Part shown: positions 2,412 to 41,770 of the stretch, piece after piece | Layout: each line of letters starts with the position of its first letter | Numbering within the stretch: the stretch's first letter is position 1 | Program-made: the position numbers and the translations under genes | Notes under the pieces: model-generated | The model's input: only the letters and a program-made list of their open reading frames with translations | Database searches by the model: none | What the model was told of the DNA's origin: nothing | Source of the DNA: a virus | Strand: one strand, 5' to 3' | Virus record (IMG/VR): IMGVR_UViG_3300031578_000112 | Span: 1 to 43,412 of that record | DNA: 43,412 bases

Positions 2412-3137
2412 CTAATACCTCCAATAATCCCGGATAAGCTCATATAATAGCCAAGTATCGGCACAATCTTTTTCACAATATTGCCGAATGATTTTCTCGC
2501 CCCTTGGCCCCATACGATAAAATTCCTGCATCATGGACCCGTCGAGGCCGTCTTTGCCGGTGGATAGGTCGAAATATCTCATGTAATAATCCAAGCTGCC
2601 TTGTGCAAACCGATCCCACTTTCCAAGGACCATACGACAATCAGTGTGATTCGTGATCCGATACATCCCGCAATCGATTCTCACTGTGGGTCGGACGCGC
2701 GCCTTCATCGAGCGGAGTTCAAGACACGGGATGTCGAAAGAAATCCCGTTGAACGTGACAAAATGATCGTACCCTTTCGCGGCAAGGAAAGACCAGAATT
2801 CCGTGAGCATGGCCCCCTGAGCCTTTAAAGACGTGTCGGATGACGGCAAGAAGAAGGATCCGCTGTCTTTTCCGTCATCCCACCCAATGCAGATGGGTAT
2901 GTTTTGTTTCACATTCTTCCACATGTCCCGGATCTGATCTGATTTTTCCTGTTCGTGTTTGGCCATGGCTTCCGCTTGCTTTTTTTCGACACTTGCGGCT
3001 ATTTTCACAGGATCAGTTACCCGGCCATCCGGTTTTATCACTGTCAGGTCCGGCAGAGGAATCGGCTTTAGCAGCGGTATACAATCCGGATCGGGGATTG
3101 TCTCAATGTCGAGTATCACGACTTTTCGGGAGATCAT
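2412..3137 (-). CDS. DnaQ/PolB-like 3'-5' exonuclease
   Basis: A 241-residue nuclease of the DEDD superfamily. The three exonuclease motifs are visible: DIET near residue 10 (Exo I), FNGISFDIP at about 149-157 (Exo II, with the catalytic D), and YCEKDCADT near 220 (Exo III). The overall form matches the predicted 3'-5' exonucleases related to the proofreading domain of family B polymerases. It would degrade DNA from 3' ends, in repair or recombination of phage DNA. No polymerase is seen in the window. Start supported by AAAGGA 7 bases upstream and an ATGA overlap with the gene before it. Confidence 0.8.
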   Translation of the reverse strand: MISRKVVILDIETIPDPDCIPLLKPIPLPDLTVIKPDGRVTDPVKIAASVEKKQAEAMAKHEQEKSDQIRDMWKNVKQNIPICIGWDDGKDSGSFFLPSSDTSLKAQGAMLTEFWSFLAAKGYDHFVTFNGISFDIPCLELRSMKARVRPTVRIDCGMYRITNHTDCRMVLGKWDRFAQGSLDYYMRYFDLSTGKDGLDGSMMQEFYRMGPRGEKIIRQYCEKDCADTWLLYELIRDYWRY

Positions 3138-3796: not shown

Positions 3797-5071
3797 TCAA
3801 ACCCTCCAGACAATAATTTCACGCGTCAGAACTAGACAGCGCTTGTTTTCCTTGGCCCATATTACCATTTGTGCATTGCATTGTTGTGATTCATAAGGCA
3901 CTGAATACCGCATATCGACCGGCAAAGAAACGGCTTTTATCATATCAACCACATGGTCTGTGAATTGCTTTTCAGGAGCTTTCCATTGCGTCGGTTGAAT
4001 AATCATGGCGATCACGGCCCCAGGTTGCAACTTTTTCGAAAGACCTTTGACAAACCCGGCAAGAGTGGAATTAAACTTTTCAAGATCCATATTCGCCAAG
4101 TCTTCCGGATCATCGGAATATTGACCGGCAGCTTGTTTCCAGTATGGCGGATCGAGATAAACGAGTTTCACATCTTTCCACCGGGGAACCGATGGACATC
4201 CGGAATTTATATCATGGGCCCGGATTTCTTTTTCCCGCTCCACTATCGGTTTCCGATCAGATACGAAATAGCGACGGCCTCTCTTTTTGCACACGTCGAT
4301 TGTTGAACCTCCACCGGCAAACGGATCGAGAACGATATCGAAAGGCTCGGTGTAGAGGTATATCAGGTTTTCCAACCATTCCGGCTCTGAATTTCCAAAG
4401 TGGGATACTCCGGTTGTTTTGGTTTGTTTTTTCCATACGTTGTAGATTGGAGGTGTATAATCGTCTTGAAATTGGATTTTATGAATATTTCCAGATCTGT
4501 TAATATTCATAAAACCCTGTTCTTTTTCGTTACCTTTTATCCATAAATTTATAGTTGCCTGATCCTTTCCCAAAGATTCTGCTATTTCACTTTGAGTCCG
4601 GCATGAAAGCCAAAGGTCGAAAGCCTCTTTCTTTTGTTTCGCTTTCGTATCCGTGTCAATTCTTCGCAGCCATTCATTGACAGTCGAAACAGCAACCGAA
4701 AACAAACCCGGCAAACGCTTTTTGAATTCCGGCCGGTCCTTCTCTGCCGTCGAATGATACAGACTCCGTGCCTTGTCCTTTTTATCCTCTGCCGACAACT
4801 GCAACCCATGAGCGTTGTTTTTCTCAATCGCAAGGAAAAGAAGATCTCTATCGGATGCTGTTTCGATAACCAAAACTTCGATCTCTTCCACTTCGTTTTT
4901 TTTGTGAGCCGTCCACCGATGCCAACCGTCAATCAGGATATTGTGCTGATTGATTTCAATCGGTGGCATGATTTCAAGATTCAAAGCGTATTCTTGAACC
5001 TTCGCCGGGTTCGTGATCGATCTAGGATATAGGTCTTCCCTGTAAACTACTTCGGACGTTTTGATTTTCAT
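3797..5071 (-). CDS. ParB-HTH-DNA methyltransferase fusion
   Basis: A 424-residue three-part protein. Residues 1-130 form a ParB/Srx-like domain with ILIDGWHRWTAH, the GxxR-type nucleotide-binding motif. Around 155-185 there is a helix-turn-helix (TQSEIAESLGKDQATINLWIKG). The C-terminal part is an AdoMet-dependent DNA methyltransferase with DPFAGGGST (motif I) near 250 and DPPYWKQ (motif IV, typical of N6-adenine or N4-cytosine enzymes) near 310. It should modify phage DNA, perhaps with ParB-fold-guided binding. The start has GGAAGGG six bases upstream. This fusion type is known in phages and mobile elements; its target site cannot be read from sequence. Confidence 0.8.
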   Translation of the reverse strand: MKIKTSEVVYREDLYPRSITNPAKVQEYALNLEIMPPIEINQHNILIDGWHRWTAHKKNEVEEIEVLVIETASDRDLLFLAIEKNNAHGLQLSAEDKKDKARSLYHSTAEKDRPEFKKRLPGLFSVAVSTVNEWLRRIDTDTKAKQKKEAFDLWLSCRTQSEIAESLGKDQATINLWIKGNEKEQGFMNINRSGNIHKIQFQDDYTPPIYNVWKKQTKTTGVSHFGNSEPEWLENLIYLYTEPFDIVLDPFAGGGSTIDVCKKRGRRYFVSDRKPIVEREKEIRAHDINSGCPSVPRWKDVKLVYLDPPYWKQAAGQYSDDPEDLANMDLEKFNSTLAGFVKGLSKKLQPGAVIAMIIQPTQWKAPEKQFTDHVVDMIKAVSLPVDMRYSVPYESQQCNAQMVIWAKENKRCLVLTREIIVWRV

Positions 5072-5073
5072 TC

Positions 5074-5346
5074 TCAACCCTTCCTGAGCTTTTCAACACT
5101 GTATTTCGTTTTGTATTCATCACAAAAACTATTTCCACATTGAAAAAAAAGAAATCCATTTTGAACAAACTCTTTGAAAAACATAGTTTTCTTGCATACT
5201 GGACATGGCATCCAAGCTATAGCAGCAAAAGATTTTACCATTTCAATAAAAAGTTCGTTCAGTTTCAAGTCTTTTTCTGCTGCAATTATACGGAATCTGC
5301 GCTTTATATCTGAATCAACTTTTAAATTTATTGTGACTTGTTCCAC
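5074..5346 (-). CDS. Ribbon-helix-helix plus zinc-ribbon regulator
   Basis: A 90-residue protein. The N-terminal 45 residues (VTINLKVDSDIKRRFRIIAAEKDLKL) match an Arc/CopG ribbon-helix-helix DNA-binding fold. The C-terminal half has CPVC and CGNSFC, a likely zinc ribbon. The GTG start is preferred because AAAGGA lies seven bases upstream; an ATG at 5382 would add 12 residues. It is the first gene after the promoter at about 5378-5406, so it may regulate its own unit, which encodes both methyltransferases. Confidence 0.65.
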   Translation of the reverse strand: MEQVTINLKVDSDIKRRFRIIAAEKDLKLNELFIEMVKSFAAIAWMPCPVCKKTMFFKEFVQNGFLFFQCGNSFCDEYKTKYSVEKLRKG

Positions 5347-5377
5347 TTTTGTGTCCTTTCTTTTAAGATGTGAATTA

Positions 5378-5406
5378 TACATATCTGGCTTTCTTTATTT
5401 TGTCAA
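5378..5406 (-). promoter_or_regulatory. Predicted sigma70-type promoter for the 5.3-0.1 kb unit
   Basis: On the minus strand TTGACA lies at 5406-5401. With 17 bases of spacing comes TATGTA at 5383-5378. A perfect TATAAT is at 5379-5374, but with 21 bases of spacing. It follows directly after a terminator-like hairpin, so a new transcription unit probably begins here. Confidence 0.5.
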
Positions 5407-23292: not shown

Positions 23293-24744
23293 TTACAAAT
23301 CCAATATTTTAGCAGTGGAAACCCACGGACTTGTTGCTGATAAGGGGTTCACCTCATTGTTGATATTACGCCCCCATCCATAATATTCACCAGTGGAAGA
23401 AACGGCCCATGTTCGCTGATATCCGCAAGCGATAACCGAAATACCGGACAAAACAGGGCTTGAAACGTCTATCCAGGGATTCGTTGCCGATGCAGGATTT
23501 GATTCATTGTTACCATTACCCCCATACGAAAAAACGTCCTCACCTACCAAAACGGCTGAATGCAGATTGCCACAAGCAATATTGGAGGCACCTGAAAACA
23601 GGACTCTTGTTATGTCAGTACTTGCCACTCCATCAGTACTGTTATAATCAGTTTGTGGATTTCTACCAATTCCGACTACATCACCATTCGTTTTCAAAAA
23701 TAGCGCATGAGTTCCACCAACACCAACCTTAGACACTGACCCCACAATAATATTGGTTTGATCAACCCATGGGTTCACGCCGCCGGGCTTGATTTCGCCG
23801 TCAGAATTGCCACCCCACCCGATCACGTCGCCATTTGTTTTAATCACAAAAGTATTGTCACCACCCGCAAAGACAGCGATACAATCAGTCATTAAAACGG
23901 TCGCCGTATTCGTCCATGGGGTTGTTGCGCTCGCCGGGTTTACTTGCCTTGTGCTATTACGGCCCCACCCGATCACATCACCATTTGATTTTAATGCGAT
24001 GGAATGCGCACCACCGGCGGCAATGTCAATGCAATCGGTGGCCATTATTGTTGCAGAGTTTATCCATGGGTCTGTAGCACTAGCGGGATTGACGTGCTGA
24101 TAGCCATTCCAACCGAATCCATAAACGTTCCCGGAGGCGTCTAAAAGTAGGGTATGAGACTCACCCCTCGAAACTTTTATATATGGCCCTGTTAAAATAA
24201 TGGATTGAGATGTCCACGGATGCGTCCCGTCGTTCGGATTCGTTTCATTATCGGAATTGATCCCCCATGAAATATAGGCCCCGTCATCGTCAAGATATGA
24301 AAATCCCTGACAATAATCCGTCATTGAGGCAATGGCAGAAAAAGGTGTAGGCGTAGGCGGATCAGGTTCAGGCGGATAAATAATCTCCGACACATCCGTA
24401 TCTTTTGATACAATCTGCAACTTGATTTCCGCCTGATCGCCGGCGGGTTCAAAAATCCCCATCACCCGGGCGGTGAATTGCGCCGTATTCGTCCCGAAAA
24501 GGATATCCGCCCGGCTTTCCATCATGATCTCCAAATTCAACCGCTGCGCCGATGTCAAATTCTGAATAATGATCCGAGCTTCCCGGTCACCCTGCACGTA
24601 TCCGCCGTCATGAATAAAAGTTGTTGCATTGACTAATTGCACGGTCGAAGTCCTGGCGGAGCCCACGGCGAAAGTAAGAGCGTAATTCCGATGAAGGACA
24701 ACCGGATCAAACAGCCCAACGGTTTTCGGGATGAGCGTAATCAT
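23293..24744 (-). CDS. Distal-tail-like protein fused to a seven-blade RCC1-like propeller
   Basis: A 483-residue protein. The first 130 residues resemble a tail-tip/Dit-like domain (HRNYALTFAVGSARTSTVQL). A proline linker (YPPEPDPPTPTPF) follows. The rest has seven repeats with the RCC1 style: each begins G-x-x-x-x-W/F-G-x-N, for example GNVYGFGWNGYQHVN, GDVIGWGRNSTRQVN and GEYYGWGRNINNEVN, and continues to an HS or HT motif about 40 residues later. Seven blades fit a closed RCC1 propeller. It is likely to project from the tail and may bind a host surface molecule. AAGGA lies nine bases before the ATG, which overlaps the upstream stop. Confidence 0.75.
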   Translation of the reverse strand: MITLIPKTVGLFDPVVLHRNYALTFAVGSARTSTVQLVNATTFIHDGGYVQGDREARIIIQNLTSAQRLNLEIMMESRADILFGTNTAQFTARVMGIFEPAGDQAEIKLQIVSKDTDVSEIIYPPEPDPPTPTPFSAIASMTDYCQGFSYLDDDGAYISWGINSDNETNPNDGTHPWTSQSIILTGPYIKVSRGESHTLLLDASGNVYGFGWNGYQHVNPASATDPWINSATIMATDCIDIAAGGAHSIALKSNGDVIGWGRNSTRQVNPASATTPWTNTATVLMTDCIAVFAGGDNTFVIKTNGDVIGWGGNSDGEIKPGGVNPWVDQTNIIVGSVSKVGVGGTHALFLKTNGDVVGIGRNPQTDYNSTDGVASTDITRVLFSGASNIACGNLHSAVLVGEDVFSYGGNGNNESNPASATNPWIDVSSPVLSGISVIACGYQRTWAVSSTGEYYGWGRNINNEVNPLSATSPWVSTAKILDL

Positions 24745-24884
24745 TTTGACTTTTCCTTTTGGACATCCGGGAAGAAAATTGACCGGTTGCAATCTTCACA
24801 ATTCCAGAGCGTCCCCGATTTCGTTCTTTCGGCCTTAAGTTCTTTGTCGCACCGATCACAAACGACTTTTATTTCTTTTTTCAT
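24741..24884 (-). CDS. Small zinc-ribbon protein
   Basis: A 47-residue protein with CDRC and CEDC pairs about 20 residues apart, a classic zinc ribbon. The start at 24884 (MKKEIKVVCDRC) overlaps the upstream stop as ATGA. It sits between the lipoprotein and the propeller-bearing tail gene. It is well below usual gene size limits and easily missed. Function unknown. Confidence 0.55.
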   Translation of the reverse strand: MKKEIKVVCDRCDKELKAERTKSGTLWNCEDCNRSIFFPDVQKEKSK

Positions 24885-36073: not shown

Positions 36074-36274
36074 TTAATCCCTGATTCTTTTTGCATATGT
36101 TCGCCTGGCAGCTACACCGCGGGCCGACTGAGCTTGCAGAAAAGCGGCAAGGTCGGAAAGATCCTTCCCGGTCCGGCGCTTTATCATCTCGTCGCCCTTC
36201 TGCGCCTGATCGATTGTCAGGTCGCCGGAAGAATCGAGATTTTCAAGGATATCGTCGGTTGTCGGTGTGGCCAT
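36074..36274 (-). CDS. gpW-like head-tail connector
   Basis: A 66-residue charged helical protein just before the portal, the position of lambda gpW. The sequence (TTDDILENLDSSGDLTIDQAQKG, TYAKRIRD) has the small-helical, basic-ended form of that family. In lambda, the large terminase gene lies directly upstream of gpW; here a 2.1-kb inverted cassette separates them. Confidence 0.55.
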   Translation of the reverse strand: MATPTTDDILENLDSSGDLTIDQAQKGDEMIKRRTGKDLSDLAAFLQAQSARGVAARRTYAKRIRD

Positions 36275-36474
36275 AGGCGGAAACTTTCTTTTGTGTAGTG
36301 AAATCCAACAGTGTTGAGATTTTCAACGTTGAAAAATACCACAGTTTTTAAACCGGTATCATGGAACTGTGGTAAATGTCAACAGTTAGGTTTGTTATTG
36401 GATTCGTTGGCGGGATTCTTGGCCGGAATGGTATAAAAAGGGTGAAAAGTGGCTTTTTTTGATAAAATATCAAT
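36275..36474. promoter_or_regulatory. Divergent regulatory region with several dyads
   Basis: No gene is visible. Dyads include TTCAACGTTGAA (about 36321-36332), CAACAGTGTTG (about 36306-36316), and an inverted pair TACCACAGTT (36337-36346) with AACTGTGGTA (36365-36374). A minus-strand TTGACA is at 36382-36377 with only weak -10 matches. This could restart transcription of the head genes to the left, since the cassette to the right runs the other way. A second GATAAAATATC dyad is at about 36461-36471. Confidence 0.45.
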
Positions 36475-36587
36475 AAATCGTATAATATTGTACGATTTTA
36501 ATTGACAGGCTTATTCTAATTTGTTAATATGCATTCAACATCGGGAAGGGAATCAGCCCAGCCCGAAAAACTCAGGAGGAAAGACAA
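36475..36587 (+). promoter_or_regulatory. Operator-promoter-leader module, copy 1
   Basis: A 24-base near-palindrome (36475-36498, half-site AAATCGTATAAT, one mismatch) is followed by TTGACA (36502-36507), 17 bases, and TAATAT (36525-36530). The predicted RNA begins near 36537 and opens with a hairpin (36541-36566: UCGGG/CCCGA outer, GGG/CCC inner pairs) and then AGGAGG before the ATG at 36588. A second copy with the same spacing lies at 37553-37665. Confidence 0.75.
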
Positions 36588-36839
36588 ATGCAGAAAATCG
36601 AAAGAATCAAAGGCAAAAACATTATCAAATGCGACAATGGCGGAACCTGGAATTTTAGAGAATGGAAAGAAAAGAGAATCTATTTTTCAAATGACCATTA
36701 CGCGGTGGGCGCTTCCAGAATTTCCTTTTTCTGGGATATTGAGGCCGGAAAGTTCAACAAAACCTTCCCCGCACTGGCAGAAGAACAAAACGATATAAAA
36801 GCCGTTATTTTGGCTGGAAACCTCAACCTTGACGACTAA
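36588..36839 (+). CDS. Cassette gene 1, small unknown protein
   Basis: An 83-residue protein with no recognised motif. It begins with lysine-rich sequence (KIERIKGKNIIKCDNGG) and has an aromatic middle (REWKEKRIYFSND). AGGAGG lies eight bases before the ATG. It is the first gene of the plus-strand cassette, under promoter copy 1, and is followed by a GAAA-loop hairpin. Size and location fit a phage anti-host factor, but this is inference from context. Confidence 0.6.
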   Translation: MQKIERIKGKNIIKCDNGGTWNFREWKEKRIYFSNDHYAVGASRISFFWDIEAGKFNKTFPALAEEQNDIKAVILAGNLNLDD

Positions 36840-36847
36840 AACCAACC

Positions 36848-36863
36848 GCCCCCGAAAGGGGGC
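36848..36863 (+). other. Intercistronic GAAA-tetraloop hairpin 1
   Basis: GCCCCC and GGGGGC pair around a GAAA (GNRA) loop, eight bases after the stop of cassette gene 1 and before the AGGAGGG of gene 2. There is no U-tract, so it is not a normal terminator. It probably guards or cuts the mRNA between genes. Confidence 0.6.
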
Positions 36864-36884
36864 ACAACTCAGGAGGGAAAAATC

Positions 36885-37139
36885 ATGGAAAATGGAAGAA
36901 GAAACAGCCGATACATGGACGGGATGTCAGATTGTGTCATCGTGGGTGACATCCTCTTTTCCGCTCGGATATTCGCCAAAGGAGAGGAGCAAAAAAGGTC
37001 ATCTTTTAAAAACGAATCTGAAGCCCTCGCATGGCTTCAAAAAACATACGAAGAATTGAAAGAAGAATTCAAGGACATACCCGATGAATGGGAACGACTC
37101 GGGTATGATAATCTTGAATTGAGATTCTATTCATATTAA
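36885..37139 (+). CDS. Cassette gene 2, small acidic unknown protein
   Basis: An 84-residue protein with an aromatic, glycine-containing first half (MSDCVIVGDILFSARIF) and a strongly acidic helical second half (EALAWLQKTYEELKEEFKD). AGGAGGG lies seven bases before its ATG. The charge pattern recalls DNA-mimic inhibitors, but the first half is not of that kind. Function unknown. Confidence 0.6.
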   Translation: MENGRRNSRYMDGMSDCVIVGDILFSARIFAKGEEQKRSSFKNESEALAWLQKTYEELKEEFKDIPDEWERLGYDNLELRFYSY

Positions 37140-37149
37140 AAAACCAACC

Positions 37150-37167
37150 GCCCCGGTTCGCCGGGGC
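37150..37167 (+). other. Intercistronic UUCG-tetraloop hairpin 2
   Basis: GCCCCGG and CCGGGGC pair perfectly around UUCG, about ten bases after the stop of gene 2 and just before the AAAGGA of gene 3. UUCG-capped stems are unusually stable in RNA. No U-tract follows. Confidence 0.65.
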
Positions 37168-37182
37168 TTGAAAGGAAAAATC

Positions 37183-37545
37183 ATGAAACCACTAACCGGC
37201 CGGAAACGGTCTTTATATGAAGCCATAAAAAACGGATCACCAACCGGAAAACTGGTTGTGGTCCACAAGGCCCGATACCCGTTGCCCCTGGCCCGATCTT
37301 TGGAACGCCGGGGATTTATCACCGTCTCTCGGTGGGATGGGGATCGATACCTGGCCAAGCTCACAGGCAAAGATCCAGACGCACCGCCGCCGGAACCACC
37401 TGCAAAGGTGGGGACGGCCAGAAAAACATTGAAGCCGGGTTCGAAGGCTTACCCGGAAAAGATCCGGGAGCGGTTCCCCACGGCCGTGAAATATCGACAC
37501 TATGACAGCGGGATAAAAACCGTTGAAATACCAGTTGAAAAATAA
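37183..37545 (+). CDS. Cassette gene 3, basic winged-helix-like protein
   Basis: A 120-residue basic protein. The N-terminal half (GRKRSLYEAIKNGSPTG, VVHKARYPLPLARSLERRGFITVSRWDGDRYLA) has the helix-helix-strand-strand layout of a winged helix DNA-binding domain. A proline-rich linker (PDAPPPEPPAK) then leads to a short basic tail. It is the best candidate in the cassette for the regulator that binds the palindromes at 36475 and 37551, as Aca proteins do in anti-CRISPR loci. AAAGGA lies eight bases before its ATG. Confidence 0.55.
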   Translation: MKPLTGRKRSLYEAIKNGSPTGKLVVVHKARYPLPLARSLERRGFITVSRWDGDRYLAKLTGKDPDAPPPEPPAKVGTARKTLKPGSKAYPEKIRERFPTAVKYRHYDSGIKTVEIPVEK

Positions 37546-37550
37546 TTTCA

Positions 37551-37665
37551 TAAAATCGTATAATATTATACGATTTTAGTTGACAAGCTCAATTCAATTT
37601 GTTATAAAGGAATCAAGATCGGGAAGGGAATCAGCCCAGCCCGAAAAACTCAGGAGGAAAACACA
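37551..37665 (+). promoter_or_regulatory. Operator-promoter-leader module, copy 2
   Basis: A perfect 28-base palindrome (37551-37578) is followed by TTGACA (37580-37585), 17 bases, and TATAAA (37603-37608). The predicted start is near 37615. The same leader hairpin recurs at 37619-37644, then AGGAGG before the ATG at 37666. A 43-base stretch from 37618 is identical to copy 1. Confidence 0.8.
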
Positions 37666-37866
37666 ATGGAACAAATCATTATCGCAAAAGACGGAAAAAA
37701 CCAAATGAGTATCCAGAAAAAAACAGCCATTCGGGGTTTTGTCTACGAAATTACAAACTGTGTAACCGGTGGAATCATGGGGAACTTTTCAGAAAAAAAA
37801 TTCAACGCCCTGATGAAAAATTCAGAAGCCGATCCGACAATCGAAATCAAAAGATATGAGAGATAA
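37666..37866 (+). CDS. Cassette gene 4, small unknown protein
   Basis: A 66-residue basic protein beginning with a strand (IIIAKDGKNQMSIQKKTAIRG) and a segment VYEITNCVTGGIMGNFSEKKF. AGGAGG lies eight bases before its ATG. It is the first gene under promoter copy 2 and is followed by two hairpins. No similarity to a known family is recognised. Confidence 0.6.
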   Translation: MEQIIIAKDGKNQMSIQKKTAIRGFVYEITNCVTGGIMGNFSEKKFNALMKNSEADPTIEIKRYER

Positions 37867-37875
37867 AACCAACCC

Positions 37876-37916
37876 GCCCCGGTTCGCCGGGGCACAACCA
37901 GGGGCGGAAACGCCCC
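37876..37916 (+). other. Intercistronic hairpins 3a and 3b
   Basis: Hairpin 3a (37876-37893) is GCCCCGG, UUCG, CCGGGGC. Hairpin 3b (37901-37916) is GGGGCG, GAAA, CGCCCC. Both are perfect stems with stable tetraloops, seven bases apart, between genes 4 and 5. Neither has a U-tract. Confidence 0.65.
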
Positions 37917-37937
37917 ACAACAAAGGGAGGAAAAATC

Positions 37938-38222
37938 ATGATTTACGATCTTAGAAAAGGTAACCAATTCGGATTTGAAGCCGAAGAAATTGAAGCCGAC
38001 CCAGTTTTGAAACTTGCCGCCGAAAGTGCCGCGGTATCCTCAGGCTCTATCGAATGCAACGCTAAAAATGTATTTGAAGCCTTCGAAATCTTTTTCAATT
38101 GCACATGGGAAGACGCACCCGGATTTCTTCCCGAATTTACAGAGAGTCTTCTCGGATGCCTGACAACTCATCCGCATCAATTCATGCCGATAGACGGATA
38201 TATAATCGCACCGGTTGAATAA
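37938..38222 (+). CDS. Cassette gene 5, acidic unknown protein
   Basis: A 94-residue acidic protein (FGFEAEEIEADPVLKLAAES, FNCTWEDAPGFLPEFTESL). GGGAGG lies eight bases before its ATG. Acidic charge dominates, which would fit a DNA-mimic or a protein-binding inhibitor, but no family is recognised. A hairpin with GAAA loop follows its stop. Confidence 0.6.
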   Translation: MIYDLRKGNQFGFEAEEIEADPVLKLAAESAAVSSGSIECNAKNVFEAFEIFFNCTWEDAPGFLPEFTESLLGCLTTHPHQFMPIDGYIIAPVE

Positions 38223-38237
38223 TTAAACACCAAAACC

Positions 38238-38255
38238 GCCCCGGGAAACCGGGGC
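38238..38255 (+). other. Intercistronic GAAA-tetraloop hairpin 4
   Basis: GCCCCGG and CCGGGGC pair around GAAA, about 15 bases after the stop of gene 5 and before the AAGGAGG of gene 6. It matches the others in stem sequence, with the flanking ACCAAAACC also repeated in style. Confidence 0.65.
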
Positions 38256-38274
38256 AAAACTTAAGGAGGAAATC

Positions 38275-38424
38275 ATGAAAAACAAAAACGAAAAAAAAGA
38301 AAAAATAGGCCGGGGTGTATGCTGTGGTTGTCATTGTAAAAAATACAGTAGCCAAAAAAAAATAGACGAATGCGTCAAAGACACGCCTGATAATTGGAAT
38401 TGCAAATGCGCTTATCAGGCTTGA
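38275..38424 (+). CDS. Cassette gene 6, small cysteine-rich protein
   Basis: A 49-residue protein with a lysine-rich start (MKNKNEKKEKIGRG) and CCGCHC, then single C and CKC near the end: eight cysteine or histidine positions, a likely metal-binding knot. AAGGAGG lies six to seven bases before its ATG. It is too short for common gene callers. It ends ten bases before the end of the large terminase gene, which runs the opposite way, with no terminator between. Confidence 0.6.
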   Translation: MKNKNEKKEKIGRGVCCGCHCKKYSSQKKIDECVKDTPDNWNCKCAYQA

Positions 38425-38433
38425 TTTGTGGGC

Positions 38434-40332
38434 CTACCACCCATCAAATCGTTTTCGCCGCTTCCGAGGCTGCGCCAGGTTCCGCCTGGCAGGCTTCGGA
38501 AGCTGTTTCGGCCTCGAATCCGCCCGATTATCCGCTTTTTTCGCCTGATTTTCGGACGGTTTCGGCTGTAACGGTTTCAGCACGGCAAGGGTGGGAGTGA
38601 TTCTCATAAGCCCGGCGAGAGCATAAACAAGGCAATCGAGGGCATGATTATCTTTGCCGATGCGGGTATTTTCCCAACTCATGACCGGATATCCCTTTTT
38701 TGTCGTCATTACAAACTCTTCAGCGGTGATCTGTTTATAAAATTCGTCTGGTAGGTCGGCCGAAAAATGGATATACCCAGGCCCAGGTTTGTCTTTTTTA
38801 TATCGAGCATAAATATCCGTTTTCATTGTGTACGTGTTGACGTTCCAAACTTTCGCCCCACCCTTGATTTTCTGGCCGCCGTATGTGACATCAACGTCGG
38901 TTGGTGGCGCAAGTATCGGCCCGGTGTTGCCCCTGGCCCCCTGCGCTGCTATACATTGCGGCCAGCGTTTCCGGGTGTATTTTTTCACGGCTTCCGTCCG
39001 ATGCCCGCCCATGTCAATCGAGCAGTTTGAGATCTTTAAAGACGCCCCGTCTTTTCGAGGAAACCCACGGGCAAGAAATTTGTCCAGCTCATCCCACACG
39101 TAGGAATCGTTTGGATCGCCGAAAATCTCACCGAAATATAAAACCCAAAGTTCGTCATCTTTTCCCCGCCCGATTAGCGTGAGCGTAAGTCGTTTATCGT
39201 GCGTATCGACGCCCAGCGACAAGACGAAAACATCCGAAGGGATTTCGAAAAATCGAAACGGCTCAGCCCTGGCCTTGAGCACTTCCCATTTCAATCGGAC
39301 GGTGCCCGGGTGTTCGTAAGTTTTGACGCAAAATGTGTTCAAAAAAACTTGCAAGGCTTCATATTTTCCTTGCGCCTTTATCCATTCAAGCGCCTTATCA
39401 TCCCATAATGCCATGCCCGGTGGCGACATAAGCCCGTGAACCATGAAGCCCCGGTATTTATTATCCGGGTCCTCGTGGATATACTCGCCCCGGTTCAACC
39501 ATATAAACTTCTTCCGCTCTTCGATCTCCCCACCGCAGCCTGCGCACATGTACCAGGTCCTCCGGATTTTCCCGTCTTTCCATACCTGATACTTGAGCCC
39601 GAACGGAGTATCACGGGTGCCCCATTCCAAATATTGCATGTGCCCGCATTTCAGGCACGGAACGTGGTATTTTCCTTTTGAAGATTGCTTGTATTGGTTT
39701 TCCCCGTGCGATGCCCCCTTGATTTTCAGCGTCGATTCTATCAGGATTTTCTCAATCCCAGCGTAATGCTCCGCCCTTTTCGGGAAAAGAATCATGGGAT
39801 CACCTTCTCCGCCTACATTTCCTTTGACCCCGTCGGCATCACTGATCACGATATACCGCATCGAGAGCGAGCGGGAGGTCGTTTTTTCCTCGGACCCGGC
39901 AAAGATAATCGACCCGCCCGGGTATTTTTTCAATGATTTGGTGTTCCCTGCCTGCCGGGATTTCTTGACCGGGAAGATGTCCCACCCCATAGCCTCCGTC
40001 ATCGGATCGAATTTTATTTCAACGTGAGTGCCGGCCATTTCCCGCGTCGGCAAGATGAAGAGGGCCGGCCCGGGTGAAAGTGCAGCGGTGCCAAGAAGGA
40101 AAATTGTGCCGAGTAGAGTTTTGCCTATCTGGACCGGTCCGACAACGACAACACGGCGAGTCCGGACTGAAGGAGAAAGTTCATACAGCGGTTCCCTCCA
40201 GAAAGGCGTGTATGACAATCGATACATGCCCTCTTTCGGGTCGCCATGGGGGAGGCGGATATTATCTTCTGCCCAGGTGTCGAGCGTAATAATTGGATCG
40301 GGGCGGATGATTCTGGAAAATTGCGCCGTCAT
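38434..40332 (-). CDS. terL: Terminase large subunit (lambda GpA type)
   Basis: A 632-residue packaging motor of the lambda GpA family. Near residue 60 is VVVVGPVQIGKTLLGTIFLLG, the Walker A region, and near 160 MRYIVISDADGVKG, which fits the Walker B. A four-cysteine zinc-like site (CLKCGHMQY, CAGCGG) is in the middle. The C-terminal nuclease part has SLGVDTHDKRLTLTLIG, ISNCSIDMGGH and an ending with GKDNHALDCLVYALAG. It cuts and pumps DNA into proheads with the small subunit. GpA-type enzymes usually make cohesive ends. The tail of the chain is basic (KPARRNLAQPRKRRKRF). Confidence 0.9.
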   Translation of the reverse strand: MTAQFSRIIRPDPIITLDTWAEDNIRLPHGDPKEGMYRLSYTPFWREPLYELSPSVRTRRVVVVGPVQIGKTLLGTIFLLGTAALSPGPALFILPTREMAGTHVEIKFDPMTEAMGWDIFPVKKSRQAGNTKSLKKYPGGSIIFAGSEEKTTSRSLSMRYIVISDADGVKGNVGGEGDPMILFPKRAEHYAGIEKILIESTLKIKGASHGENQYKQSSKGKYHVPCLKCGHMQYLEWGTRDTPFGLKYQVWKDGKIRRTWYMCAGCGGEIEERKKFIWLNRGEYIHEDPDNKYRGFMVHGLMSPPGMALWDDKALEWIKAQGKYEALQVFLNTFCVKTYEHPGTVRLKWEVLKARAEPFRFFEIPSDVFVLSLGVDTHDKRLTLTLIGRGKDDELWVLYFGEIFGDPNDSYVWDELDKFLARGFPRKDGASLKISNCSIDMGGHRTEAVKKYTRKRWPQCIAAQGARGNTGPILAPPTDVDVTYGGQKIKGGAKVWNVNTYTMKTDIYARYKKDKPGPGYIHFSADLPDEFYKQITAEEFVMTTKKGYPVMSWENTRIGKDNHALDCLVYALAGLMRITPTLAVLKPLQPKPSENQAKKADNRADSRPKQLPKPARRNLAQPRKRRKRFDGW

Positions 40333-40538
40333 GTTATTCTATTTATCAATTTTTTCTTGAAATCCTCCGCGGTGCTGTTTGATAAAGCGCATTCCAGATT
40401 CTCGATACAGCGCTTCAGGCCATAAAATTGGCAAGCTTCCTCTTCAGAATAAACGCTCTGATTCTTCTCGAAAAAAGTAAAAGCATCCTTCCAATATTTC
40501 AGCAATATGTGGACTTTTCCGCATGTGTGGCAATTCAT
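40329..40538 (-). CDS. Small hypothetical protein
   Basis: A 69-residue protein with N-terminal CHTCGK, another cysteine pair further on, and helical sequence (EEEACQFYGLKRCIENLECAL). It overlaps the terminase start as ATGA. A ribosome binding site is weak. It sits between endolysin and large terminase. Confidence 0.45.
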   Translation of the reverse strand: MNCHTCGKVHILLKYWKDAFTFFEKNQSVYSEEEACQFYGLKRCIENLECALSNSTAEDFKKKLINRIT

Positions 40539-40560
40539 TTTATGAACTCTATGTTATAAT

Positions 40561-40860
40561 TTAGTATTCGTAGTGATTCCCGTCTTTATTCTTAAACCGG
40601 CCGCCCCAGGTTCCGCCTATCGATTCCCAGTATTCCCCCAGGGGCTTATGGGCTTCCGTGTCCCTTCGATATTTTCCATCAATAAAAAGGTTGAAATCCA
40701 CTGCAAGGCGGTCGTGATGTTTCGAAGTTTTCGAGCCATACGGGCAACGTGGATCTCTGTAGGCGTCACCATAGGTCAACTCATACCCGAGTTGATTTGC
40801 GTACCAGATCAGTTTGCCGGTCATCCGGACAAAAGTCGACTGCTTTTCTCGGAGTGTCAT
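40561..40860 (-). CDS. M15-family peptidase endolysin
   Basis: A 99-residue peptidase. The motif SKHHDRLAVDFNLFIDG has the zinc-binding H and D, and the final GNHYE gives the last H, as in M15 L-alanyl-D-glutamate or D,D-carboxypeptidase endolysins. The part LTYGDAYRDPRCP is typical of the family. It would cut cross-links in the cell wall for lysis. It is short even for this family. The start has AAGGTGGG upstream and overlaps the upstream stop as ATGA. No holin is clearly recognisable nearby. Confidence 0.85.
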   Translation of the reverse strand: MTLREKQSTFVRMTGKLIWYANQLGYELTYGDAYRDPRCPYGSKTSKHHDRLAVDFNLFIDGKYRRDTEAHKPLGEYWESIGGTWGGRFKNKDGNHYEY

Positions 40861-41072
40861 GGGTTCCCACCTTTCCGGACAATATCAATATCTTTGAAAT
40901 AAAAAACTTTTTCAACTTCTTCAAGGCCATCACCAAGAGTTATTATTTTTGCCACTGCTGCCTCGGTAGCACTGCCAGTAATGGCGAACGATATCACCCG
41001 ATCAATTTTTTTACCGTCAATCTCAAAAATTGCGTTAGTGAAATTTTCATTGTGCGTTATTTTAAGCCTCAT
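40857..41072 (-). CDS. Small hypothetical protein
   Basis: A 71-residue protein with strand-rich sequence (FTNAIFEIDGKKIDRVISFAI) and an acidic helix. The strong GGGGAGG upstream overlaps the end of the SEC-C gene. No family is recognised. It precedes the endolysin. Confidence 0.45.
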   Translation of the reverse strand: MRLKITHNENFTNAIFEIDGKKIDRVISFAITGSATEAAVAKIITLGDGLEEVEKVFYFKDIDIVRKGGNP

Positions 41073-41075
41073 TTT

Positions 41076-41333
41076 TTATCCCACCTCCCCTTTAAACCGG
41101 CAACAGTTTTTTCGTTTTTTACCCGATCCGCAATGACATTTTTTCCCGAAAATCTTTTTTATCTTGGTTTTTGAAAAATAGCTACTATAAGGCTTCAGGC
41201 ATGACTTGCACGATAACACCTTGCCTGGATCCTCAATCGTCATAGACCCTTCATATTCTGTAATATCGACACTTACAGCGCTCCCGCAACCGGCACACGG
41301 AAGATTGACCATCGTTTTAGCCTCATTTTTCAT
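41076..41333 (-). CDS. SEC-C-like zinc protein, copy 1
   Basis: An 85-residue protein with a CAGCG site and a CKSCLKPY site in the first half, then a C-terminal KKCHCGSGKKRKNCC that matches the SEC-C metal-binding motif. SEC-C motifs bind zinc and often contact partner proteins. It is paralogous to the gene at 41334-41603 (same C-terminal motif). Its first 73 bases recur at about 41694-41770 inside the chimeric gene. Confidence 0.65.
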   Translation of the reverse strand: MKNEAKTMVNLPCAGCGSAVSVDITEYEGSMTIEDPGKVLSCKSCLKPYSSYFSKTKIKKIFGKKCHCGSGKKRKNCCRFKGEVG

Positions 41334-41603
41334 TTAAATATCCCAGTTATTGTTTTTCCTATCGAACTCCTCAAACTTACAACAGTTTTTCCGCTTCCTC
41401 CCCGATTCGCAAGGGCAAGGCTTCCCCAAAATCTTTTTCTGTTTCGTTTTCGATGTCCGATTTTTAAAACATGCCGGGCAGGACGAGACATGCTTGTAGA
41501 ATTCAAACTGCATCTGGTTTTCCCGAAGATCCACTCGGACCGTTTGCCCACAATTTTCACACGTCATAGCGACGGTTTTTTTTATTTCCGTTTCGGTTCC
41601 CAT
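41334..41603 (-). CDS. SEC-C-like zinc protein, copy 2
   Basis: An 89-residue protein with CENCG and CPACF pairs, then KPCPCESGRKRKNCC, a SEC-C motif. The stop lies directly before the ATG of copy 1. Copies 1 and 2 differ in the N-terminal half but keep cysteine order, so a tandem duplication followed by divergence is likely. The start overlaps the chimeric gene stop by one base (TAATG). Confidence 0.65.
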   Translation of the reverse strand: MGTETEIKKTVAMTCENCGQTVRVDLRENQMQFEFYKHVSSCPACFKNRTSKTKQKKILGKPCPCESGRKRKNCCKFEEFDRKNNNWDI

Positions 41604-41770
41604 TATAATCCTAATTCCTTTTCCATGTTTTCGACAACATCGGCAAGATCCGAGAGCAAATCAAAGATCACTTTCTGCAATAAATCCTCGAATTCTGTAA
41701 TATCGACACTTACAGCGCTCCCGCAACCGGCACACTGGAGATTGACCATCATCTGAGCCTCGTTTTTCAT
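41603..41770 (-). CDS. Chimeric small gene made by segmental duplication
   Basis: A 55-residue frame: MKNEAQMMVNLQCAGCGSAV, which copies the start of SEC-C protein 1, followed in frame by EFEDLLQKVIFDLLSDLADV and ENMEKELGL, which copies the end of the small terminase. The DNA at about 41604-41690 repeats 41769-41857, and that at 41694-41770 repeats 41258-41333, both with few differences. The start overlaps the terminase stop as ATGA, so it would be translated. Whether the product does anything is unknown. Confidence 0.6.
   Translation of the reverse strand: MKNEAQMMVNLQCAGCGSAVSVDITEFEDLLQKVIFDLLSDLADVVENMEKELGL

Follow-up and report, generated by a model that had tools for sequence, protein, structure and literature searches.

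Several described systems place small genes behind shared regulatory DNA. Aca proteins of acr-aca operons repress transcription via inverted repeats in the promoter (PMC9410906), and in plasmid p576, which encodes a ribbon-helix-helix (RHH) repressor, ardC and genes of unknown function are preceded by repeated strong promoters and by stabilising 5' inverted repeats (PMC8708921). Besides, anti-defence genes of archaeal viruses share a conserved regulatory sequence (PMC11065993) and the promoter/stem-loop repeats (PeSLs) of T4-type phages are reported to be tied to small-gene shuffling (Arbiol 2010 and Comeau 2014, as cited in PMC4503421). The Tab moron of Pseudomonas phage JBD26 is an 83-residue orphan between the terminase genes that lies on the opposite strand, is driven by a promoter of its own and protects the lysogen (PMC10884400). 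Here we compare with these systems an island of six plus-strand open reading frames (ORFs; 36588-38424), which lies antisense between the gene of the large terminase (TerL) and a gene in the position of gpW in a 43,412-base virus record (IMG/VR IMGVR_UViG_3300031578_000112; the whole record is referred to as the window). We are confident that the packaging operon of this phage, whose terminase is of the lambda type (GpA), harbours a recombining, modular island of accessory genes.

An accessory slot with replaced and re-ordered genes

A sequence-only reading of the window had proposed six plus-strand genes in antisense orientation between TerL and the gpW-position gene, and these ORFs are indeed present on that strand. 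Judged by ORF tiling, ribosome-binding sites (RBSs) and codon usage, no other plus-strand gene in the 43 kb is convincing; the three further plus-strand ORFs are all nested in large minus-strand genes. The GC content of the island is 44% versus 50-52% in the flanking genes. Scans of viral contigs yielded three relatives, termed L004, L005 and L033. The genes of the island are as follows:

36588-36839, plus strand: g1, 83 aa, first gene of unit 1; AGGAGG RBS; orphan, absent from L004 and L033
36885-37139, plus strand: g2, 84 aa, acidic (pI 4.8); orphan, 89% identical in L004
37183-37545, plus strand: g3, 120 aa, ATG start, basic (pI 10.3); candidate regulator, 94% identical in L004
37666-37866, plus strand: g4, 66 aa, first gene of unit 2; orphan, DNA identical in L004, where it belongs to unit 1
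37938-38222, plus strand: g5, 94 aa, very acidic (pI 4.2); orphan, absent from L004 and L033
38275-38424, plus strand: g6, 49 aa, last gene; seven cysteines, candidate metal binder

Layout, duplication, conservation, and the replacement and re-ordering of genes in one slot are all observed directly. L005 (TerL 97% identical) is collinear and has all six genes. In L004 (TerL 96%), that slot is filled in the order module-g4-g2-g3, module-ART, module-n1-n2-n3-n4-g6, where module denotes the regulatory DNA described below, ART a gene resembling ADP-ribosyltransferases and n1 to n4 further small genes. L004 thus has neither g1 nor g5, which otherwise occur only in the near-identical L005, and carries five other genes instead. 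In g4, all 198 nucleotides are identical between the window and L004 while the TerL DNA differs by about 11%; g4 also belongs to another unit in L004, which points to a recent exchange or relocation. Even L033, with TerL and portal each only 38% identical, has small plus-strand genes in the interval from TerL to the gpW-position gene: one orphan of 65 aa and a g3 homologue, then a second unit with ART and an n4 homologue (62-63% identical). Across island relatives the units comprise one to five tiny genes, and a copy of the module stands at the head of every unit in the window and in L004. The sequence-only reading had suggested a look at this slot in related phages, and what it holds there are different, re-ordered small orphan genes and no structural homologues.

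The coding character of the island is real, because L004 keeps the frames of g2, g3, g4 and g6 open with low pN/pS values, indicating purifying selection (window versus L004: g2 0.13, g3 0.16, g6 0.18). None of the six proteins had a credible match in Pfam, PHROGs, NCBIfam or PADLOC, which are general or defence libraries and not dedicated to anti-CRISPR (Acr) proteins, and no Acr or Aca homologue was found in them; this agrees with the initial impression that the products resemble no recognisable family. At E <= 0.1, there was no match in annotated phages or plasmids either, with g6 left out of the plasmid query. Weak single matches in Pfam or NCBIfam (SHIRT, HipA_2, DUF2249, LolA and others) were far below cut-off and were disregarded. 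The description of some members as acidic or metal-binding-like also suits g2, g5 and the cysteine-rich g6.

One gene of the sister islands, which does not occur in the window, gives a hint of a biochemical activity:

L004 5970-6422, minus strand, and L033 3909-4349, plus strand: ART, PARP-like, 146-150 aa; conserved H5, Y38 and E133, ENIVVWDLA motif

The L033 protein matches the Pfam PARP family (PF00644) over residues 3-145 with E 0.0018, at 18.2 bits versus a cut-off of 26.7. We take H5, Y38 and E133 to be placed like the H-Y-E triad of PARPs. The single-sequence AlphaFold2 (AF2) model had a predicted local distance difference test score (pLDDT) of 35. Judged from its sequence, ART is possibly a very small phage PARP-type ADP-ribosyltransferase. 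The L004 and L033 copies are 80% identical, between phages whose TerL proteins are only 38% identical.

Duplicated operator-promoter modules

The three genes of each unit stand under one of two 134-nt modules that are 83% identical:

36466-36599, plus strand: regulatory module copy 1 (operator, promoter, leader, RBS), 134-nt direct repeat, aligned with the L004 copies
37544-37677, plus strand: regulatory module copy 2, 134-nt direct repeat, aligned with the L004 copies
36475-36498, no strand: palindromic operator-like site 1, AAATCGTATAATATTGTACGATTT, 24 bp
37553-37576, no strand: palindromic operator-like site 2, inside a perfect 28-bp palindrome (37551-37578)
36502-36530, plus strand: sigma70-type promoter 1, TTGACA-17-TAATAT, from the promoter scan
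37580-37608, plus strand: sigma70-type promoter 2, TTGACA-17-TATAAA, read from the sequence

Both palindromes follow the pattern AAATCGTATAATATT(G/A)TACGATTT. With up to three mismatches allowed, chance would yield 0.08 copies of the 16-bp core per window; three were found, two of them at the island operators. In a search over viral contigs, the operator occurred elsewhere only in two of the known relatives. Across the two modules of the window and the three of L004, the palindrome AAATCGTATAATATTATACGATTT, the TTGACA box, a TAT-containing -10 element at 17 nt, the leader hairpin and the Shine-Dalgarno region are kept, while the promoter spacers are more variable and one half-site of the palindrome is degraded in one L004 copy. 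A generic promoter scan exceeded shuffled sequences only slightly (6 versus 3.6 +/- 1.8), so that the promoter claim is based on the repetition and conservation of the modules and not on consensus scores. Own promoters, palindromic operators and strong RBSs had been described for the island beforehand, and they were recovered here as parts of two near-identical modules. L033 likewise has two promoters, which carry a different repeat; the second one, AAAGTC-GAAA-GACTTT, lies between -35 and -10.

g3 as candidate regulator

Of the island genes, g3 alone occurs in every one of the three lineages. Its AF2 model has a winged-helix-like N-terminus with a pLDDT of about 82-88 over residues 11-60 (overall 69.5), and many of the top Foldseek matches are winged-helix proteins (RPC39 WH domain, SrnR, CodY, Zur/Fur, RosR, TubR), none of them significant. 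The earlier idea of a winged-helix protein among the six is thereby moderately supported by fold and type of match, but not by any significant hit. A profile match in the PDB to a designed protein (7q58, E 5.7e-5) was disregarded, as it offered no qualifying domain.

The L033 homologue is 63% identical over 83 aa of the N-terminal domain and has a different C-terminus. Replacement of both the operator and the g3 C-terminus in L033, together with retention of the N-terminus, is what would be expected if g3 reads the operator. Because it is common to all lineages, is predicted to be DNA-binding-like and changes its C-terminus where the operator changes, we propose g3 as autoregulator; that it acts as repressor of the island promoters has, in our view, an even chance of being right.

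Hairpins in the leaders and between the genes

A second type of repeated element is predicted at the RNA level:

36541-36566, plus strand: leader hairpin 1, fold -13.8 kcal/mol, z -2.2; two compensatory pairs in L033
37619-37644, plus strand: leader hairpin 2, identical in sequence to leader hairpin 1
36848-36863, plus strand: intergenic GC hairpin g1/g2; near-identical 30 nt in L033
37150-37167, plus strand: intergenic GC hairpin g2/g3, from the fold/hairpin scan
37876-37893 and 37901-37916, plus strand: two intergenic GC hairpins g4/g5, from the fold/hairpin scan
38238-38255, plus strand: intergenic GC hairpin g5/g6, from the fold/hairpin scan

The leader hairpin (TCGGG-AA-GGG-AATCAG-CCC-AG-CCCGA) consists of a 5-bp stem, a 2x2 purine-rich internal loop, a 3-bp stem and a 6-nt loop, and recurs, with an altered sequence, in front of the second L033 unit. 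None of its eight pairs is lost among the four distinct sequences; compensatory changes preserve two of the pairs, and this signal disappears when the partners are slid. A match of the leader-hairpin scan in a further contig, L010, was discarded as an unrelated GC-rich inverted repeat in a structural region.

All four gaps within the units contain GC-rich hairpins just ahead of the ribosome site. These gaps hold five such hairpins in 211 nt, versus eight in the whole 43 kb (shuffle mean 0.2; none of 2000 shuffles reached five). A function as plus-strand terminators was rejected as there is no T-run; on the minus strand the hairpins are terminator-like, with T stretches interrupted by GG. The intergenic hairpin AACCGCCCCGGTTCGCCGGGGC was also rejected as an indicator of related islands, since a query derived from it matched 257 annotated phage records, 210 of them from Pseudomonas phages. 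In unrelated phages (L013-L029, especially L017, L021, L022 and L027), the hairpin GCCCCGGTTCGCCGGGGC often follows a stop codon and precedes the next ribosome site. Since they are so widespread in unrelated phages, the intergenic hairpins appear to be a borrowed or convergent expression device rather than a mark of the island.

Surroundings of the island

The island is inserted between minus-strand genes of the packaging region:

38434-40332, minus strand: TerL of the gpA type (GpA_ATPase 8e-49, GpA_nuclease 7.6e-71), convergent with the island
36074-36274, minus strand: 66-aa protein in gpW position, no match in Pfam or PHROGs, divergent from the island
36292-36387, no strand: 96-nt non-coding block between the gpW-position gene and the island, 90% identical in L033, with 19-nt inverted arms

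The stop codon of g6 is 9 nt from the convergent stop codon of TerL, the first promoter region of the island is divergent from the gpW-position gene, and the portal gene (Phage_portal_2, 3.7e-62) follows beyond the latter. In four named phages with GpA-type TerL (Turba, AcaML1, Stenotrophomonas S1 and Roseobacter CRP-811) there are only short co-directional genes between TerL and portal and no such antisense block. The statement that the TerL and gpW genes are normally adjacent is thus borne out for these cases.

The 96-nt block has its inverted arms at 36328-36346 and 36365-36383 (ACCACAGTT...AACTGTGGT) and its L033 counterpart at 2934-3028, and it had no match in annotated phages. Its 90% identity, whereas the flanking proteins are only about 38% identical, points to horizontal exchange or strong constraint; the block is a candidate promoter for the downstream head genes or a candidate recombination point.

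Further features were noticed elsewhere in the window. A second variable stretch (40329-41700) with small minus-strand genes lies upstream of TerL and encodes an M15 peptidase and Cys-rich SEC-C-like proteins; the alignment with L005 breaks there, while its flanks remain 96-97% identical. On the minus strand, 3797-5077 encodes a ParB-like N-terminal region fused to a DNA methyltransferase domain (PHROG matches), 5074-5382 a short protein that matches RHH weakly and has a metal-binding-like tail, CPVC...CGNSFC, and 23293-24792 a tail-region protein with repeated GDVIGWGRNS units that look RCC1-type-like by eye.

Proposed mode of action and alternative explanations

We lean slightly towards an account in which the accessory island is expressed early, controlled by g3 autoregulation and directed at host defence or host takeover. 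Upon DNA entry, the strong sigma70-type promoters would fire while the regulator is absent, and the leader and intergenic hairpins beside the strong ribosome sites may shape or stabilise the messages. The products would then act early on the host, most likely on its defence systems or its machinery. As g3 accumulates, it could shut both promoters via the shared palindrome, like Aca or Reg of p576, and late transcription from TerL would subsequently cross the island in antisense, which may add to the shut-off.

Slots with swapped content are a common way for phages to carry genes that defeat or take over the host. Of the idea of a possible anti-defence locus, the accessory slot with swapped small orphans stands, while a family match that would name such a function did not emerge from the general and defence libraries. 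Anti-defence proper is for us a candidate function, held at somewhat less than an even chance. An ART-type enzyme, as suggested by its sequence, would be of the early-effector type, and we count it in favour of the proposed account. More tentatively still, the slot might serve an uncultured phage group as a regulon-like island dedicated to counter-defence, in which g3 would be a new kind of autoregulator whose C-terminus changes with the operator. Equally tentatively, such an island would comprise twelve families without recognised relatives, except for the PARP-like enzyme, that are swapped as modules under one operator.

Several points weigh against the proposed account. The libraries searched revealed no known anti-defence or takeover family among the products. 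The g3 model was built from two sequences, its Foldseek matches all have E > 0.1 with non-winged-helix entries among them, and the RHH-like C-terminus of L033 g3 scores below the Pfam cut-off. The co-variation of operator and g3 counts as a single event, because there is one clear operator switch, and 37 of 500 shuffles matched the leader covariation, which involves only four distinct sequences. Furthermore, the palindrome sits just upstream of -35 and not over the core promoter, and could consequently be an activator site or a site for a host regulator. Its half-site AAATCGTA (36475-36498, 37553-37576) resembles that of the Bacillus Zur box, with different spacing; a host metal regulator could be the binder.

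The strongest alternative is that the genes are Tab-like morons expressed during lysogeny: in a temperate phage, the prophage would transcribe the reversed units and thereby protect the host from other phages, through superinfection exclusion or anti-phage defence. Tab itself is a precedent, the operator-promoter layout also permits lysogenic expression, and a recombination-directionality-factor-like protein (PF18897) as well as a Cro/CI-type helix-turn-helix protein (PF01381) are present. However, no integrase was recognised among the annotated genes, with part of the ORFs searched, and a sensitivity-limited search of 84,980 genomes found no relative by TerL or g3 and hence no prophage with a close one. 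We regard this explanation as unlikely.

A low probability is also assigned to host takeover in the strict sense, in which the early small proteins inhibit host transcription, translation, replication or proteases instead of defence systems. Early small orphan genes of lytic phages often have such roles, and the ADP-ribosyltransferase-like gene of the sister islands would suit the modification of host proteins, which phage T4 carries out by ADP-ribosylation. Against this, the rapid gene turnover in the slot suits variable defence targets better than conserved host machinery, although the present data are compatible with both.

That the products are auxiliary packaging or head proteins, placed here to work with TerL and portal, would fit their position among packaging genes; it is very improbable given the opposite strand, the own promoters, the absence of the block from the four named GpA phages, and a gene content that is replaced while TerL and portal remain unchanged. 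A misassembly or chance ORFs, for which we found no supporting point, can be dismissed as the independently assembled L004, L005 and L033 carry the same arrangement, in addition to the purifying selection and the strong RBSs.

If the account of an early island under g3 control is right, the operator module labels small phage proteins without relatives as candidate counter-defence or host-takeover factors, and operator, leader hairpin and g3 are sequence handles to bait further islands. It would also illustrate, for a locus that is neither T4-type nor plasmid-borne, how tiny genes can be swapped in a fixed slot while the packaging operon stays intact.

Comparison with known systems

With acr-aca operons the island shares small orphan ORFs, a strong sigma70-type promoter with an inverted repeat beside it and a candidate DNA-binding gene in the operon, here g3 as last gene of unit 1. 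L004 keeps this arrangement and L033 has it with another repeat. In contrast to acr-aca operons, no known Acr or Aca homologue was found in the libraries searched, two to three promoter modules are present and the palindrome of the window lies upstream of -35.

The EGeRS2 establishment or anti-defence islands of pLS20-family clade II plasmids such as p576 resemble it in their small variable operons under near-identical strong promoters with an operator by -35; an RHH repressor within the regulon and inverted repeats in the 5' untranslated region are further EGeRS2 features. Several near-identical operator-promoters occur here too (two in the window, three in L004, two of another type in L033). 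EGeRS2 islands, however, reside on conjugative plasmids with dual TTATCCC operators, ardC and reg, whereas we see a phage packaging locus with another operator, no homologues of these families and no plasmid match; g3 is winged-helix-like, and RHH-like only, and weakly, in the L033 C-terminus.

As in the archaeal viruses, a common promoter region precedes unrelated small genes, and a predicted winged helix-turn-helix regulator (Aca8) belongs to that set; the promoters there are archaeal and that set has experimental validation, whereas the present island is described from its sequence. The PeSLs, as reported in PMC4503421, share the association of repeated intergenic promoter/stem-loop motifs with small-gene shuffling, and gene order and content are indeed shuffled between the window, L004 and L033. 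They are, however, promoter-terminator composites of T4-like myoviruses, while the plus-strand hairpins here lack a T-run and the packaging genes are of the GpA type. Compared by layout, the Tab moron is also a small orphan in the terminase region, and an opposite-strand unit with its own promoter is found in our window as well; the difference lies in six genes between TerL and the gpW-position gene and in the duplicated regulation.

Each ingredient of the island has a precedent. What is new is the combination: an antisense position in the gap between TerL and gpW, repeated operator modules with a leader hairpin, a part of the regulator that is swapped together with the operator, and proteins without relatives.

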